DNA of 22,488 nt from a virus: positions 1 to 22,488 of IMG/VR virus record IMGVR_UViG_3300037189_000613; one strand, given 5' to 3'. A program made the position numbers and the translations under genes. Of this stretch, positions 3,173 to 16,955 are shown piece after piece (positions within the stretch are counted from its first letter, which is position 1; the number at the start of each line of letters is the position of its first letter). The notes beneath the pieces are model-generated. The model was given only the letters and a program-made list of their open reading frames with translations. It was not told the DNA's origin and made no database searches.

Positions 3173-3180
3173 TATAAATA
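3173..3180 (+). promoter_or_regulatory. T4-type late promoter for the tail-tube-like gene
   Basis: An exact TATAAATA starts 7 bases after the terminator T-run and 75 bp before the next coding start. The leader contains a short inverted repeat (TAACCT at 3200-3205, AGGTTA at 3222-3227) and a ribosome site GAGGT. Confidence 0.82.
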
Positions 3181-7926: not shown

Positions 7927-9642
7927 ATGATTCTATTTAAAAAACTACGATATCAGAATCTACTATCTACAGGTAATCAGTTTACTGAACTTGTTTTTAC
8001 TAAATCTAAGTCGACACTGGTAGTAGGACAAAACGGTGCGGGTAAGTCAACGTTTATCGAGGCGTTGACTTTTGCTCTGTATGGTAAACCCTTTCGAAAT
8101 ATTAACAAGCCACAGTTGCTTAACTCTATTACACAAAAGAATCTATTAGTTGAACTAGAGTTTTCTATTGGTAAGAAAGAGTATATGATTCGTCGAGGCA
8201 TTAAGCCTAACGTATTTGAAATTATAGTCAACGGGCAGCTACTAGATCAGAACGCAGACGCACGAGAATATCAGGAACATCTAGAGAAGAACATTCTTAA
8301 ACTAAACTTTAAGTCGTTTAGTCAGATTGTTGTACTAGGTTCGGCAAACTATGTTCCGTTTATGCAGTTACCTGCATCTGAACGTCGCAAGGTTGTAGAA
8401 GATCTTTTGGACATACAGATCTTCTCCGTAATGAACAGCATCCTAAAAGATAAGATCGCAAATAACCGGACCGCAGTAACTGAAATAGATTACAGTATCA
8501 ACTTATGTGAACAGAAGATCGAAATGCACACTAAGCATATCGATACACTGAAAGCAAATAACGATGATCTAATCGTACAGAAACAACAGAAGATTAAAGA
8601 ACATCAAGAAGGATTAGATAGTCTATCTGTTGATACTGATTTACTTTTAGAAAAAGTGGAGATATTAAATGAAGAAGTCTGTGATGAAACCAGGGTCTTG
8701 GGTCGTAAGACTAAACTTGTTCAGATGGAATCTACAATTGAAGATAAGATACGCAAACTTAAAAAAGAAGTGGCGTTCTATCACGATCATGATAACTGCC
8801 CCACATGTAAGCAGGGCATTGACCATGAATTTAAGACCGAAACTATCTCTAAGCGCGAAGCAAAATCCGGCGAACTAACAGAAGCACTTACTAAGCTAGA
8901 AACAGAGATTACTACAACAGAAAGTCGTATCGAAGAGATTAATAAACTCAACGAGCAGATCTCTAGCCTAAATACTAAGATTAGTGAAAACAATCAGCAG
9001 ATTAAGTTCTACAATAGATACATTAAAGATCTACGTGAAGAAATTACTAACCTGCAAGATCAGGCTTCTAAGATTGATACTAACTCTGAAGATACCGTGA
9101 AATATGAAGAAGAGCTAAATAAGCATAACGCACGTAAACAAGAACTGATTAAAGAAAAGTCTGTACTAGATATTGCTGGACAATTACTAAAAGATACAGG
9201 TATTAAGACTAAGATTATTCGACAGTATGTACCTGTTATGAACAAATTGATTAATAAGTATCTATCAGCATTGGACTTTTTTGTAGACTTTCAATTGGAT
9301 GAATCATTTAATGAAACAATCAAATCAAGATTCCGGGACGACTTTTCATATGCTTCTTTCTCCGAGGGAGAAAAGATGCGCATTGATCTTGCTCTTATGT
9401 TTACCTGGCGTGCTATTGCTAAGCTACGTAATAGCGCTTCCACTAATCTTCTTATCATGGACGAGGTCTTCGATTCGTCGCTTGACGCAACTGGTACAGA
9501 AGAGTTCTTAAAGATACTAGAGAGCTTGACTTCTGATTCGAATACGTTTATTATTAGTCATAAAGGCGATAGTTTGTTCGATCACTTCCACAGCGTAATC
9601 AAGTTCGAGAAGCATGCTAATTTCTCACGTATTACTACCTAA
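7927..9642 (+). CDS. 46: Recombination endonuclease subunit gp46 (Rad50/SMC-like ATPase)
   Basis: gp46 is the ATPase partner of gp47 in DNA end resection. The protein has 571 residues (T4: 560). Features in order are Walker A GQNGAGKS at 34-41, a long coiled coil from about 170 to 400 interrupted by the zinc hook CPTC at 291-294, the ABC signature FSEGE at about 478-482, Walker B LLIMDE with D512/E513, and the H-loop ISHKGD. All Rad50-type elements are intact. The 3' end overlaps the convergent minus-strand endonuclease gene by 18 bp. Confidence 0.96.
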   Translation: MILFKKLRYQNLLSTGNQFTELVFTKSKSTLVVGQNGAGKSTFIEALTFALYGKPFRNINKPQLLNSITQKNLLVELEFSIGKKEYMIRRGIKPNVFEIIVNGQLLDQNADAREYQEHLEKNILKLNFKSFSQIVVLGSANYVPFMQLPASERRKVVEDLLDIQIFSVMNSILKDKIANNRTAVTEIDYSINLCEQKIEMHTKHIDTLKANNDDLIVQKQQKIKEHQEGLDSLSVDTDLLLEKVEILNEEVCDETRVLGRKTKLVQMESTIEDKIRKLKKEVAFYHDHDNCPTCKQGIDHEFKTETISKREAKSGELTEALTKLETEITTTESRIEEINKLNEQISSLNTKISENNQQIKFYNRYIKDLREEITNLQDQASKIDTNSEDTVKYEEELNKHNARKQELIKEKSVLDIAGQLLKDTGIKTKIIRQYVPVMNKLINKYLSALDFFVDFQLDESFNETIKSRFRDDFSYASFSEGEKMRIDLALMFTWRAIAKLRNSASTNLLIMDEVFDSSLDATGTEEFLKILESLTSDSNTFIISHKGDSLFDHFHSVIKFEKHANFSRITT

Positions 9643-10230
9643 TGAATTAGTTTTTGTTATCTTTGGTTCATTTGGATTGGTCTTTTTAAGGCCTTTATTC
9701 CAACCTACAGAAACACCTTTTTTGCCCTTATTCCAAGCAACCCGCCCTTTCATTTTTTCTATGGTTTCAGCTGTATGTTTATAGCCTTTTGTTGACGGCA
9801 TTTGTTTACCATTAGCCATTTTATTTTTTTCATCTTGGCTTTTTGCTAATTTTCTTTCTTCTGACCATTTTTCTTTTTTGGGTTTTCGCATTTTTATTAA
9901 AGTTTCAGGTTTGTGTTTATAGCCTATTTTTGGTGTTGGCGGCGCTCCAATAGCAATGTTCAACCAATCTTCTCTGGTTTTTACTTTGAGTTTAGTTAGT
10001 ACTTTTTGTTCCCATAATTGACATTGTTCTCTTGTATCAAATATTTTTCGTATTTGTACATCAAAAGATTCTTTACCATGTTCTTTTATGAGTTGTTTTA
10101 CTTTTTTTGATGAGGTAAAATACGTATTCCATAGATCATTAGGATGGCATCCTGTTTTCCAACGGGCTCCATAATAATGTTGATTTGTTATCCTATTATA
10201 GATATAGTAGGTAAAATAAACAGTGTACAT
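9625..10230 (-). CDS. GIY-YIG-like homing endonuclease with NUMOD3-type repeats
   Basis: This is the only gene on the minus strand. The chosen start at 10230 gives 201 residues and has a perfect GGAGG ribosome site 5 bases upstream. An upstream ATG at 10323 would run into the deformylase gene and is less likely. The N-terminus reads YYIYNRITNQHYYGARW, a GIY-YIG-type core with the usual Tyr pairs and Arg; a candidate catalytic Glu lies in LWEQKVL. Downstream, GYKHKPETLIKM and GYKHTAETIEKMKG are NUMOD3-type DNA-binding repeats, followed by two WNKG motifs. This is the domain order of free-standing phage homing endonucleases. It sits between genes 46 and def and has its own late promoter. Such genes spread by cutting phage lacking the insert. 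Confidence 0.8.
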   Translation of the reverse strand: MYTVYFTYYIYNRITNQHYYGARWKTGCHPNDLWNTYFTSSKKVKQLIKEHGKESFDVQIRKIFDTREQCQLWEQKVLTKLKVKTREDWLNIAIGAPPTPKIGYKHKPETLIKMRKPKKEKWSEERKLAKSQDEKNKMANGKQMPSTKGYKHTAETIEKMKGRVAWNKGKKGVSVGWNKGLKKTNPNEPKITKTNSLGSNT

Positions 10231-10252
10231 TATATCCTCCATGTAGTATAGT
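10224..10252 (+). promoter_or_regulatory. Possible sigma70-type promoter for def-queE-dexA
   Basis: TGTACA (10224-10229) and TATAGT (10247-10252) are 17 bp apart, 38 bp before the deformylase start. A second pair, TTGATT (10180-10185) and TATAGT (10203-10208), is also 17 bp apart. A + strand promoter is needed here because the preceding gene reads the other way. Both -35 boxes match the consensus at only 4 of 6 bases. Confidence 0.35.
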
Positions 10253-10253
10253 G

Positions 10254-10261
10254 TATTTATA
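10254..10261 (-). promoter_or_regulatory. T4-type late promoter of the homing endonuclease gene
   Basis: Read on the minus strand this is an exact TATAAATA, 23 bp before the ATG at 10230. The predicted leader is short and contains the GGAGG site. The mobile gene therefore appears to be expressed late, independently of its neighbours. Confidence 0.82.
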
Positions 10262-10289
10262 GAAAACAAGTTTTTAGTAGGATCGCAGC

Positions 10290-10805
10290 ATGATTCTTGA
10301 TTTAATTCCAGCAAATAGTCCAATTCTTAAACAGGAAATGGAACGTTTTGATTTTTCTAATCCGCCAGTAAATCCCCTAGATCTAGTTACGGATCTAGCC
10401 GAAACAATGCTACATCATAATGGTATTGGACTAGCAGCAAATCAATGTGGTCTTCCATACCGTGTATTTGTTATGAATGCAGATGAATTAATTCCTTGTT
10501 TTAATCCTATTATAGTACATTATGATCCTGATACTATTGTACTAGAGGAAGGGTGTCTGTCTAATCCTAATCTGTTTGTCAAGATTAAGCGCCCTCGTAC
10601 TATCAAGGTCCGTTATACGGAACCAGACGGAAATACTCTTACTCGTGTTTTTGATGGTATGACAGCAAGAATCTTTCAGCATGAATTATCTCATCTTAAC
10701 GGGGAGAATTATATCCGTCTCGCTTCTTCGTATCATAGAGAACAAGCACGCAGTCAACAGAAGAAAGCTAATCGACAAAATAAGGAACTACATTATGCCT
10801 ATTAA
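10290..10805 (+). CDS. def: Peptide deformylase
   Basis: This enzyme removes the formyl group from the initiator Met of new proteins and is common in marine T4-like phages. The protein has 171 residues. All three family motifs are present: G-I-G-L-A-A-N-Q (45-52), E-G-C-L-S-N-P (87-93, metal ligand Cys89) and H-E-L-S-H (131-135, metal ligands His131 and His135, catalytic Glu132). The third motif is usually HELDH; Ser replaces Asp, but the HExxH core is intact. A ribosome site AGGA precedes the ATG. Its 3' end overlaps queE by 11 bp, so it is the first gene of an operon with queE, dexA and the phosphoribosyltransferase. Confidence 0.95.
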   Translation: MILDLIPANSPILKQEMERFDFSNPPVNPLDLVTDLAETMLHHNGIGLAANQCGLPYRVFVMNADELIPCFNPIIVHYDPDTIVLEEGCLSNPNLFVKIKRPRTIKVRYTEPDGNTLTRVFDGMTARIFQHELSHLNGENYIRLASSYHREQARSQQKKANRQNKELHYAY

Positions 10806-13492: not shown

Positions 13493-14158
13493 ATGAAAAC
13501 TGATTACGAACTAGGCAAGAAGGTAAATGCGTATTTGGTATCTAAGGGTGTAGAAACACCTGTAGTTCTGGATATGTTGAATGTATCTGACAAGAGTAAG
13601 ATTACAAAGATCGAAAAGAACTTCCGTAATATTATGGAAACACTTGGGTTGGATCTGACTGATGATAGTCTTGTAGATACACCTACTCGTGTTGCTAAGA
13701 TGTATGTTAACGAAATCTTTCGTGGTCTTAACTACGAGCAGTTTCCTAAGTGTACTGTAGTAGAGAACAAGATGAAGTACGACGAAATGGTTGTAGAAAA
13801 GAACATTACAGCAATTTCTTCTTGCGAACATCACTTTGTTACTATTGATCAGAAGGTACACATTGCTTACATTCCAGCAGATAAGGTTCTTGGTCTTAGT
13901 AAGCTAAATCGTATTGCAAAGTTCTTTGCGCATCGTCCACAGATTCAGGAACGTTATGCTGAACAGTTGTTCTATGCACTAGAATGTATTCTGGAAACTA
14001 GCAACATTGCTGTTGTTGTTACTGGTAAGCATTATTGTGTTGCACAGCGTGGTGTAGAGGATACTAGCTCTTATACTATTACAAGCAAGCTAGGTGGTTT
14101 CTTTAAGTCGGACTCTTCTGTTCGCAAGGAATTTATGGATTTGGTAAACAGCAAATGA
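13493..14158 (+). CDS. folE: GTP cyclohydrolase I (FolE)
   Basis: FolE opens GTP to dihydroneopterin triphosphate and formate, the entry step to preQ0. The protein has 221 residues, normal for the bacterial enzyme. Zinc ligands and catalytic residues are visible: C111 and H114 in SSCEHHFVTI, C182 in HYCVAQRGVED, and the conserved GLSKLNRIAKFFAHRPQIQE helix (134-153). VDTPTRVAKMY near 61-71 is also a family signature. It has its own promoter and a good ribosome site. Its stop overlaps the dpdA start (ATGA), so the two are translationally coupled, tying precursor supply to base insertion. Confidence 0.96.
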   Translation: MKTDYELGKKVNAYLVSKGVETPVVLDMLNVSDKSKITKIEKNFRNIMETLGLDLTDDSLVDTPTRVAKMYVNEIFRGLNYEQFPKCTVVENKMKYDEMVVEKNITAISSCEHHFVTIDQKVHIAYIPADKVLGLSKLNRIAKFFAHRPQIQERYAEQLFYALECILETSNIAVVVTGKHYCVAQRGVEDTSSYTITSKLGGFFKSDSSVRKEFMDLVNSK

Positions 14159-15456
14159 GATTAGAATATGTGCTTTCTGGGTTGTCGCACACAAAGATAA
14201 CCACGCCGTACTTTGACGCCCCTGTCCTTGTTGACATGGGGCGTCAAGCTCTGAAATACGTATCCGACAATACAGATCATGATCTTGGACTATTGTTTAA
14301 CGCAATGGTCGAACCTTCTTTTCCTAAGAAGTTTGAAAATTATCGTGATTGTGTAAAGTATATTCATAGTGACTCTGGTGGACTACAGTTAGCACAGAAG
14401 GGTAAGCCTCTTACACCTGATGTAGAAGCAAAGATCTACAAGACACAGGCTCTTAACTCTAATATCTCGATGAGTATTGATAAAATTCCATTGGAAATTA
14501 TTCCAGGAATGGGCGATCCTCGTACAGATATGAATGCTAAGCGCTTTGTTGTCTCTGAGAACAAAGATGCCGGTATTGAATCTGGAAAGAATTTGTATAG
14601 ACAGATTCAGGCATTTAAAAAGTATCGTATAGACGATACTAAAAACTACGATAGCAAGCCTCTAATGATTATTCAGGGTAATGCTCTAGAAGATTACATC
14701 GAGTACTTCGATAACATTCTAGCACAGATTCCTGAAGAAGACTACTGTATGATTGGAGGCTATGCTCTCGCGGGTTCTGCTATTGGTATTGGCACTCTAG
14801 AAGCTATGGACACTCTGTTCTCGTTTCTAGCTCTTGACAAGCCAAAACAGATTCCAAAGAAGATCCACTTGCTGGGGTATGGATCTGTACAGCGTCTTAT
14901 GCCAGTTCTTTCACTGAAGGAAACATTCTTTAGTGATTATGAAATTAGTTACGACTCTACTACACACACTTCTAAGTATAACTTTGGTGGTGTATTGGGA
15001 GAACATGGCGGAGACGTTTCTTTTGGTATGCAGGACAATCCAGAGGGACGTGAAGTATTTGGTAGAGTTTATGATAGGTTTGCCGATGCTATTAAGTCTA
15101 GTCTAGGTGTAGACAGACAGCGTTGGGTAGACGTTATCGTAAGTGAACTTACTGGTTCTACACGTTACCATCCTTCGGACGAGGCAGGTATTATCCACCG
15201 CAGTGGTCCACTCATGTGTTCGTTGTATTCTGCTTACAACTTTATTAAACTAGTTGACAAGACAGAAAAGAATATTCGCACATCTAAGCATTCGTTTACT
15301 GGTGTGCTACATAATATTCAACAGAACGTAAAGAGCCCGGAACACTGGTTCGAAGAATATCGTGATAAGGTTAGCATTCATTTACCGTCTAACCGGATTA
15401 AAAGGATTGACTTTAGAGGAAACTACGGTAATAATTTGGATAGTTTCTTCGATTGA
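14155..15456 (+). CDS. dpdA: DpdA-like DNA 7-deazaguanine transglycosylase (TGT superfamily)
   Basis: Proteins of the tRNA-guanine transglycosylase superfamily swap guanine for a 7-deazaguanine. The DpdA branch does this in DNA and is found in phages with 7-deazaguanine-modified genomes. The protein has 433 residues. TGT-like positions are HSDSGGLQ (71-78, D73; classical SDSGGFQ), MSIDKIP (D109), MIIQGN (Q174), MIGGYALAG (199-207), KIHLLGYGS (236-244) and ISYDSTTH, where D267 fits the nucleophile Asp. The CxCxxC zinc site of bacterial TGT is not seen, consistent with a DpdA rather than a tRNA enzyme. Context with folE, queD, queE and queC supports preQ0 or a derivative as substrate. Confidence 0.87.
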   Translation: MRLEYVLSGLSHTKITTPYFDAPVLVDMGRQALKYVSDNTDHDLGLLFNAMVEPSFPKKFENYRDCVKYIHSDSGGLQLAQKGKPLTPDVEAKIYKTQALNSNISMSIDKIPLEIIPGMGDPRTDMNAKRFVVSENKDAGIESGKNLYRQIQAFKKYRIDDTKNYDSKPLMIIQGNALEDYIEYFDNILAQIPEEDYCMIGGYALAGSAIGIGTLEAMDTLFSFLALDKPKQIPKKIHLLGYGSVQRLMPVLSLKETFFSDYEISYDSTTHTSKYNFGGVLGEHGGDVSFGMQDNPEGREVFGRVYDRFADAIKSSLGVDRQRWVDVIVSELTGSTRYHPSDEAGIIHRSGPLMCSLYSAYNFIKLVDKTEKNIRTSKHSFTGVLHNIQQNVKSPEHWFEEYRDKVSIHLPSNRIKRIDFRGNYGNNLDSFFD

Positions 15457-15471
15457 TAAAGGAATTAAAAA

Positions 15472-16317
15472 TTGTTTGGACCTTCAGCACTACCTATTGA
15501 ATACTCGCATCGTTGTGAGTCTTTCCACATATTGTATCGCAATACTGTAAATCTCTTTAAGCAGAAGTTTAACCTGCCTGAAGAAACAATCGTTCTGCTA
15601 GTTACTGGTTCTGGTACAGTAGCAAACGAAATCGTTATGTACTCTATGAAAAACTATCCCGATGTGGTAACAGAGGGTGGTTTCTCTTCTCGTCTAAAAG
15701 ATAATACTTTCCACCACCTTGTGGGTCCTATTCCGGACGAAGAAACTTCTACTGTAGGTGTTCAGTACGAGACTGGTATTTCTAAGTTCTATGACAATCT
15801 GGACGTGGATTTCGCAGATTGTGTTTCTGCTTTTCCATATCATGATCCAGTAGGCAAAGTGTGGACCACTGTTTCTTTTAAGCAATTGGGCTCGGTGACA
15901 GGATTATCCTTGATTGTTATTAAGAATGAAGCTACAATGAAGGAACTGTTTAGGGAAACAGAACCTACTTACCTGTCTCTAATGAAGTATTACGATGCTT
16001 CGCTTAAAAACGAAACACCTAATACACCTGCTGTATCTGCTATTGAACATTTTTACGATATATTGGTAGATTTTGATCTGGATAAGCATCGTAAAACTAT
16101 TGATACACGTTATGGCATTATTAAAGATCTCCTTGCAGTTAAAGGCATAGAGACTAAAGGCATAGAACCTGTGCTTACTGTTGTAACAACTCCTGAAGTT
16201 CGTGAACGTCTAAAGAAGTTTAAACTATATGGTAACTCTGGAGACCTACAAATCTTTACTTGGACAGGTACAGATGAACAATATGAAAACTTTTATAAGG
16301 AACTAATGGCACTATGA
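15472..16317 (+). CDS. Compact class V aminotransferase-fold PLP enzyme
   Basis: The gene uses a TTG start with AAAGGA 8 bases upstream. The protein has 281 residues; class V enzymes are usually 350-400. It follows the family order: FGPSALP at 2-8 (family pattern TPGPTPVP), SHRCESFHILYR (12-23), LLVTGSGTVANE (42-53), D116 in ADCVSAF (the Asp that binds the pyridine nitrogen), K137 in SFKQLGSVTGLSLIVI (Schiff-base Lys; compare SxQKALGxPPGLA), and 'TPAVSAIEHFYDIL' in the small domain. About 40 residues between the cofactor loop and D116 appear shortened. Its stop overlaps the queC start (ATGA), so it is coupled to preQ0 synthesis. The substrate is unknown: base tailoring, amino-acid supply or cysteine-type chemistry are possible. 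Confidence 0.72.
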   Translation: MFGPSALPIEYSHRCESFHILYRNTVNLFKQKFNLPEETIVLLVTGSGTVANEIVMYSMKNYPDVVTEGGFSSRLKDNTFHHLVGPIPDEETSTVGVQYETGISKFYDNLDVDFADCVSAFPYHDPVGKVWTTVSFKQLGSVTGLSLIVIKNEATMKELFRETEPTYLSLMKYYDASLKNETPNTPAVSAIEHFYDILVDFDLDKHRKTIDTRYGIIKDLLAVKGIETKGIEPVLTVVTTPEVRERLKKFKLYGNSGDLQIFTWTGTDEQYENFYKELMAL

Positions 16318-16955
16318 AGGTACTAAGTCAGCTATCTGGAGGCATTGACTCTGTAGGATCTACACTAAAGATCGCAGAGTCTGGTGTCGTGTTCGGAACA
16401 ATCTTCTTTGATCTTGAACAGGCATATGTCGCCCAAGAATCTCTCGCTGTAGACTATTTCGTAGAATACTTGAAAGAAAACTATCCAGACACATATACGG
16501 GTCATTATTATTCTGAAGTGTTTATGGATACCTTTTCCCCGGATCCGAACACACCTTCGGAATACATTCCGGTACGCAACTTTGTTCTGGGTGCTATGTC
16601 TGTTAACAAGGCACTAGCAAATGGCTTTGACACGATTGCCGTAGGCTCTAAGACTGTTAAGGTACGTCCTGGAGATCCGTATTCGTTCTCGGATTGCTCT
16701 ATTGAGTTCTTCCAGAAGATGTCTGATATTGCCACATTCTGTTCTGAGAACCAGAAGGTAGAGTTTATTATGCCTCTTATTGATGGCGAAACTCCGATGA
16801 CTAAACAGGAAGTTATTAAATATCTTATTGATAATGATGTAGATGTATCTCGACTGTGGTCTTGTTACAATGGTGAAGTTGACAAGCATTGTGGTGTATG
16901 TTATCATTGTCAAGAGATTAAGAAGACTGGTTATTGGGACTACTTCTCTCGTTAA
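16314..16955 (+). CDS. queC: 7-cyano-7-deazaguanine (preQ0) synthase QueC
   Basis: QueC uses ATP and ammonia to turn 7-carboxy-7-deazaguanine into preQ0. The 213-residue protein has the PP-loop S-G-G-I-D-S at 8-13 and the zinc-binding set C184-x8-C193-x2-C196-x2-C199, exactly the QueC spacing. VRNFVLGAMSVNKALANGFDTIAVG (about 87-111) matches the family's second block. All key residues are present, so full conversion to preQ0 is likely. It overlaps the PLP enzyme by 4 bases. No QueF-like reductase to preQ1 is seen in the window. Confidence 0.95.
   Translation: MKVLSQLSGGIDSVGSTLKIAESGVVFGTIFFDLEQAYVAQESLAVDYFVEYLKENYPDTYTGHYYSEVFMDTFSPDPNTPSEYIPVRNFVLGAMSVNKALANGFDTIAVGSKTVKVRPGDPYSFSDCSIEFFQKMSDIATFCSENQKVEFIMPLIDGETPMTKQEVIKYLIDNDVDVSRLWSCYNGEVDKHCGVCYHCQEIKKTGYWDYFSR

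Follow-up and report, generated by a model that had tools for sequence, protein, structure and literature searches.

Antisense GIY-YIG homing endonuclease gene at the end of phage gene 46 and its probable spread by tail replacement

The locus raised the question of how a free-standing endonuclease gene can enter a packed phage operon, reaching from the opposite strand into the end of gene 46. We analyzed the whole of a 22,488-base virus record (IMG/VR record IMGVR_UViG_3300037189_000613), which is called the window here. The PHROG and Pfam matches of the window gave a T4-like gene content, and a longer IMG/VR contig (L104, 58,641 bases) was 99.97% identical to it across 8,513 compared bases. 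The features that bear on the question were as follows.

7927-9642, plus strand: gene 46, SbcC-like recombination nuclease subunit, which hosts the insertion (PHROG 77, E 4.3e-180; tblastn to annotated gp46 of T4-like phages)
9625-9642, both strands: dual-coding, codon-aligned overlap, seen in the sequence and with the same 18 nt in L233 and the relic L031
9625-10230, minus strand: SegE-type GIY-YIG homing endonuclease, 201 aa, with a NUMOD3-like C-terminal part under the NUMOD3 cut-off (Pfam, PHROG, model)
9625-10272, no strand assigned: putative extent of the insert, with a few nt of uncertainty at its right edge (from empty ends and the gp44-site relatives L236 and L237)
10236-10240, minus strand: GGAGG ribosome-binding site of the endonuclease, five bases before its ATG (sequence)
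10254-10261, minus strand: TATAAATA, T4-type late promoter box of the endonuclease, 31 nt before its ATG (exact; conserved in relatives)
10273-10293, plus strand: displaced native gene 46 3' end, TTTAGTAGGATCGCAGCATGA, which now gives def its AGGA site and start codon
10290-10805, plus strand: def, peptide deformylase, the next gene, with a start that overlaps the displaced ATGA (Pfam PF01327, E 4.3e-33)

The minus-strand gene had been read from the letters as a homing endonuclease, and this was borne out. The ORF runs from an ATG at 10230 to a TGA at 9625-9627; the program-made ORF list places its start at an upstream TTG, 10323. The protein matched the SegE_GIY-YIG family (PF19835) with 27.7 bits against a cut-off of 25 (E 3.4e-6), which places it in this family, and PHROG 314, 'homing endonuclease', with E 3.5e-26. 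The general GIY-YIG model (PF01541) gave 14.1 bits, below its cut-off of 22.6. The relative in contig L218 stayed under the SegE cut-off (22.6 vs 25), and the NUMOD3 scores of the window (15.5 bits) and L218 (20.3) were both below 20.4. In the AlphaFold model, residues 1-90 had pLDDT values of 77-96 in ten-residue blocks, and the model was weaker past residue 90, with block means of 40-74. The three best PDB structure matches were all to the catalytic domain of I-TevI, with probabilities of 0.99-1.00 and E values of 0.008-0.06 (1.00 and 0.008 for the best), none of them reaching 0.001. Y8, Y19, G21, and N91 were invariant in 18 of 18 aligned sequences, and we take them to correspond to I-TevI residues. 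The GIY-YIG fold and its conserved residues were thus found in the model and in the alignment. A PDB sequence search with alignment A2 gave no match at E up to 0.1. The search with alignment A1 found no relative in bacterial and archaeal genome contigs; among viral contigs it gave 11, the close family, and exactly these 11 came back when the viral contigs were scanned with alignment A3. The remaining minus-strand ORFs of at least 60 aa in the window all overlapped plus-strand ORFs, in agreement with the statement that this is the only minus-strand gene.

The end of the endonuclease gene is also the end of gene 46. On the plus strand, the overlap reads TCA CGT ATT ACT ACC TAA, the final six gp46 codons (S R I T T stop). 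On the minus strand, it reads TTA GGT AGT AAT ACG TGA, the final six endonuclease codons (L G S N T stop), so the gp46 serine TCA is the reverse complement of the endonuclease stop TGA. The gp46 end of the window is TTC TCA CGT ATT ACT ACC TAA. An empty gp46 end reads, for example, AAC TTT AGT AGG ATC GCA GCA TGA, and its ATGA starts the next gene. The same 18-nt overlap was found in L233, with the endonuclease C-terminus LRSHT, and in L031, a relic with only a 55-aa C-terminal remnant that ends alike (LRSDS). An accidental overlap was rejected because of this recurrence. The codon-aligned 18-nt form was limited to these three; the overlap was 7 nt in L218, 8 nt in L235, and absent in L001, whose endonuclease has lost most of its NUMOD3 part.

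The gp46 tail was recoded at the occupied sites. All six occupied sites with a known gp46 end (the window, L083/L001, L218, L233, L235, and relic L031) had CGT, CGC, or CGA as the Arg codon of NFSR, against 8 of 83 other tails among the matches listed (Fisher p 5e-6, which is too small as the sequences are related). The 83 tails came from a set fetched by gp46 or def alone, not by motif, with 39 tails without FSR and three occupied ones set aside. AGG stood at the tail Arg in 58 of the 83 empty tails, against 120 of 1565 Arg codons in the gp46 body (among the matches listed), as expected if AGG doubles as the ribosome-binding site of the next gene. The Ser codon AGT was retained in the gp46 tail of L235. 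L038, which has a recoded tail, a displaced tail, and no recognizable endonuclease, was set aside as a possible scar only and is counted within the 8 of 83.

The sequence-only reading had stated that the gene invades gene 46 by 18 bp. The overlap is there, but the replacement of the tail had been missed: the native tail was displaced to 10273-10293, and TTTAGTAGGATCGCAGCATGA now lies about 630 bases past the gp46 stop and directly before def. When TTTAGTAGGATNGCAGCATGA, with one base free, was searched in 2.9 million IMG/VR viral contigs, 43 of the 46 exact matches were in-frame gp46 ends. The other three were the window's own contig, L193, and L218. L218 carries a 175-aa endonuclease relative in the same antisense position, and L193 begins inside an endonuclease copy (tblastn 93% over residues 1-57; locus L084, same contig), with its gp46 end outside the contig. 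A looser tail motif gave at least 120 stretches, 80 of them listed; together with the TTTAGTAGGATNGCAGCATGA set and minus nine duplicates, these made 105 distinct stretches. Among these listed matches, 97 were gp46 ends and eight were not, namely the window, L193, L218, L031, L038, L256 (a sense-strand endonuclease), and L261 and L270, which had no gp46 sign. AGG was kept in seven of seven displaced tails (window, L001, L193, L218, L233, L235, and L031), and also in L038. With the 21-nt native tail displaced to the position before def, the point of entry of the endonuclease lay among the final gene 46 codons. It had also been proposed that the endonuclease leader may be a divergent promoter, with plus-strand boxes for def. 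The region 9400-10400 held five such sites against 3.1 ± 2.1 in shuffled sequence, which is not above chance, and it is more likely that the displaced tail has preserved the ribosome-binding site of def.

Both empty and filled sites were found. The gp46 site with a displaced tail was present in the window, L001/L083 (99.97% alike), L193, L218, L233, L235, and relic L031. The endonuclease family occupied the gp46 site in seven contigs (six phages) with six different next genes: def, MNKEVYN.., MTRFIWV.., MNDFEKW.., MNKLKN.., and MTTFLAE... Elsewhere, the next gene stood straight after an uninterrupted gp46 tail in five of the six cases (MTRFIWV at four loci, MNDFEKW at one with 38% identity, MNKLKN at three, MTTFLAE at two, and def at many). 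For MNKEVYN, the 30-aa ORF of L001, no relative was found in which it follows an uninterrupted gp46 tail. The close family was rare at gp46 ends, with 3 of 125 distinct ends among the matches listed (the window contig, L001, and relic L031), and some of these contigs stop soon after gene 46, so that the family may lie beyond their ends. Every gene 46-site carrier found was a metagenome-derived contig. In the closest relative, L105, gp46 was 92% identical at the protein level over residues 41-571, and the site was empty with a native-type tail. It had been proposed to compare the 46-def junction among relatives, and a gene fixed everywhere would have counted against mobility; empty gene 46 ends exist, including that of L105.

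We consider it probable that the gene, a free-standing one of the GIY-YIG homing type, moves from phage to phage by replacement of the gene 46 3' tail. In many phages that lack it, the closing codons of gp46, typically AAC TTT AGT AGG ATN GCA GCA TGA, seem also to carry the ribosome-binding site and the overlapping start of the next gene. Since the tail would be both code and start signal, its DNA would be strongly conserved and a good target. The endonuclease, probably made late, would cut the end of gene 46, or nearby, in a co-infecting empty phage, and some repair pathway would copy the unit into the cut phage. After insertion, the last codons of the endonuclease would complete gp46 from the opposite strand in a recoded form. 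Because the tail is recoded, the site would no longer be the native one and may resist the enzyme. gp46 would stay whole because the endonuclease end doubles as its own end, and the next gene would not lose its start, since the native tail now stands directly before that gene. The predictions follow that the native tail is cut and the recoded tail spared. A wider version, which we hold somewhat short of even chances, is that one shared DNA piece ending both genes would give harmless insertion, an altered target, and protection from deletion in one step. The displaced tail would then both provide the start signal of the next gene and act as a short homology arm on the right, allowing the unit to home beside different downstream genes, and the sister genes at gp44 and def would likewise be tail-grafting.

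The gene 46 junction also held other inserts. L030/L032 carried another antisense endonuclease-like ORF of 192 aa, from 17 nt inside to 562 nt past the gp46 end; it was GIY-YIG-like by eye with NUMOD3 below the cut-off, and the gp46 tail there was changed (NFSVMVVE). L014/L015 carried a sense GIY-YIG endonuclease 33-687 nt past the gp46 stop; the C-terminus of this endonuclease (..IIRIAA) is itself the displaced tail of gp46. The L014 endonuclease exceeded the Pfam cut-off, and gp46 there ends ..NFSVIKQEKQEKV. A sense endonuclease was also present at the junction in L256/L275 and L164/L166/L167, presumably of an Endo VII/HNH-like type. In L006, L022, L233, and also L212, a 41-aa ORF (MNKLKN../MNKIKN.. 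type) between gp46 and def or its neighbor ends in an extra copy of the gp46 tail. The copies with a small non-endonuclease ORF (L006, L022) showed that tail duplication can arise without an endonuclease.

Such inserts can be read in another way, which we consider unlikely. The junction would be prone to recombination, insertion would be illegitimate or driven by microhomology, tail duplication would be neutral for any cassette, and the endonuclease would be one of several passengers that cuts elsewhere. The small ORFs that close with a further copy of the tail (L006, L022, and L233) and the endonucleases of other types, lying in either orientation (L014, L030, and L256), are consistent with this, and a table in PMC2988022 gives the neighboring gene as the target for several T4 Seg and Mob enzymes. 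However, in six diverged phages the family sat at identical gp46 codons and was antisense every time, and the presence of several unrelated endonuclease types at one junction suggested a target. Several endonuclease types in both orientations pointed to the gene 46 end as a repeated entry point.

Inheritance was examined by comparing the endonuclease with gp46 in the same phages. Between the window and L001, endonuclease codons 1-121 agreed at 332 of 363 nt (91.5%), against 1199 of 1704 nt (70.4%) for gp46, and six nonsynonymous and 23 synonymous codons had changed in the endonuclease. Protein identities were 76% vs 50% for L218 and L233 and 74% vs 59% for L233 and L235. Among the five gp46-site proteins, the endonuclease was closer than gp46 in 8 of 10 pairs, hardly so for L082 and L235 (62 and 61%); in the two exceptions, L233 with the window and L233 with L082, it was no closer. 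A single ancient insertion followed by many losses would fit the similar values of the window and L233 (63 and 64%), and relics do show loss (L031, perhaps L038). This history is very improbable in view of the L001, L218, and L235 comparisons and of the empty, native-type tail of L105. At the sequence level, the gene has moved horizontally between diverged phages relative to gene 46, and empty and occupied alleles of one site exist, as is characteristic of homing endonuclease genes, for which site-specific cleavage of the empty allele and unidirectional inheritance would also be expected. Co-conversion was only suggestive in the comparison with L105, where the last 60 nt agreed at 37 of 60 positions against 44-58 in 26 other 60-nt bins.

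The orientation of the gene was constant in the close family. Each of the 11 contigs obtained with alignment A1 had it antisense, seven at gp46 (two 99.97% alike and one without its gp46 part) and four behind gp44. Distant relatives were antisense behind def (L252), before gp47 (L085), and in L086, L087/L088, and L092, and co-directional in L089, L091, L093, L095, and L101. Matches were found in 129 records of cultured phages. Seven of these were looked at, six of which were annotated; five of the six homologues lay on the strand of their neighbors and one was antisense. This meant that the antisense orientation marks a sub-family, not every relative. In a tree of 24, the antisense label was clustered, with four changes against a shuffled mean of 7.9 (1 of 500 shuffles was as low; inner support was modest).

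The exact TATAAATA, the GGAGG, and the 18-nt overlap were each present as claimed. The window holds four copies of TATAAATA against 2.39 expected, and 22 of 100 shuffles reached four, so the count alone is not above chance. The copy at 1680 precedes the major head protein gene (1727), that at 3173 precedes the tail tube gene (3248), and the remaining one (17903) falls within an ORF. Before the endonuclease, the box was conserved in relatives. An exact TATAAATA stood 25-31 bases before the ATG in seven of nine distinct gp46- and gp44-site members, with a chance expectation per leader of 1-4% by shuffles; the non-exact boxes were those of L001, with one extra A, and L235, with one mismatch. Within 80 bases upstream, an exact box was found for 9 of 16 antisense genes (L030 included) vs 2 of 10 co-directional ones. 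The gp44-site leaders of L236 and L237 (AAAACTTGATT..TATAAATA, in a AAAACTTG...TATAAATA form) resembled AAAACTTGTTTTCTATAAATA of the window, which suggested that the promoter travels with the gene. The view of the gene as a self-sufficient mobile module held, with promoter box and leader beside different neighbors. A T4-type late gene is defined by an upstream TATAAATA and by late, gp55-dependent transcription, and late expression of the endonuclease, driven by its own TATAAATA promoter, is probable. No minus-strand terminator was found in a simple scan of 9400-10400, and an antisense effect on 46/47 is possible. That the gene is a domesticated antisense regulator, kept because its late transcript lowers 46/47, is scarcely credible: the antisense orientation, the conserved late box, and the scan for terminators agree with it, but the gene is absent from nearly all relatives (at 3 of 125 ends among the matches listed), 23 of the 29 codons that differ in the catalytic part changed synonymously, a sign of selection on the protein, and sister genes lie behind gp44, behind def, and before gp47.

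Spread by tail replacement has partial counterparts in known systems. The window endonuclease is like T4 SegA-G as treated in PMC2988022, above all SegD and SegE, in its GIY-YIG catalytic domain and in being free-standing between phage genes. It is also like SegD in lying antisense to its neighbors; that source describes SegD as the sole antisense endonuclease gene in T4, with no promoter of its own found, and lists late or middle promoters for some T4 Seg endonucleases. Unlike T4 SegD, all 11 close-family contigs are antisense and mostly have their own TATAAATA, and the unit at gene 46 replaces the tail of a host gene. I-TevI shares the catalytic fold, as judged from the model, and has a late promoter (PMC2988022); it is intron-encoded and in the orientation of its host gene, whereas the window endonuclease is free-standing and antisense. 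The split nrdA of phage Aeh1 (mobE) is also an insertion in the coding region of a replication or nucleotide gene, but there, as PMC2988022 describes it, the host protein is in two pieces, whereas gp46 here stays whole.

A further likeness was to the fungal mitochondrial mORFs of atp6, atp9, cox2, and nad3 (Glomus; Allomyces atp6), which PMC3630166 describes as replacing the tails of their host genes. As in those mORFs, a foreign, largely synonymously recoded host C-terminus is brought in by the insert and the native C-terminus is displaced downstream. As described there, the mORFs have their replacement tail on the strand of the endonuclease gene, either ahead of that gene or in phase with it. 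Here, in contrast, the endonuclease was antisense in 11 of 11 contigs, the replacement tail is formed by the endonuclease's own end, and the next gene takes its start from the displaced tail. A search of titles and abstracts in the open-licence literature found no published case of antisense tail replacement in a phage. The sequence of this locus offers an answer to how a free-standing endonuclease gets into a packed operon while leaving the entered gene and the translation of the next one intact. Tail replacement, known from fungal mitochondria, would thereby be extended to phages with an antisense twist, and the gene 46 end, conserved as it seems both as code and as ribosome-binding site, was entered by different endonuclease types.

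Several minor observations were made at other junctions. The sister endonucleases of L236, L237, L239, and L240 lay antisense behind gp44, and those of L236 and L237 overlapped the gp44 end by 8 nt. In L237, the other strand of the leader is read as a portion of an extended N-terminus of the clamp-loader gene that follows (gp62-like). At L252:3208-3795, an antisense endonuclease relative overlapped the def end by 30 nt. In addition to the family relative before gp47, L085 held a second antisense ORF of 234 aa between gp47 and gp46 (YLYIKQHS..GLKYFGKT), with a 38-nt overlap with the gp47 end, which is possibly another GIY-YIG endonuclease. In the window itself, at 14155-16955, a 433-aa gene adjoined a QueC-like gene, and its neighbors are presumably queE-, queD-, and folE-like; the stretch may be a deazaguanine DNA-modification cluster. 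The name dpdA for 14155-15456 was rejected, as the PHROG of the 433-aa gene is one without known function. In L105:1128-2010, the gp46 match starts at residue 41 (2011), about 0.9 kb past the gp47 end (1127), against a gap of 198 nt in the window, and this stretch is possibly another insert.
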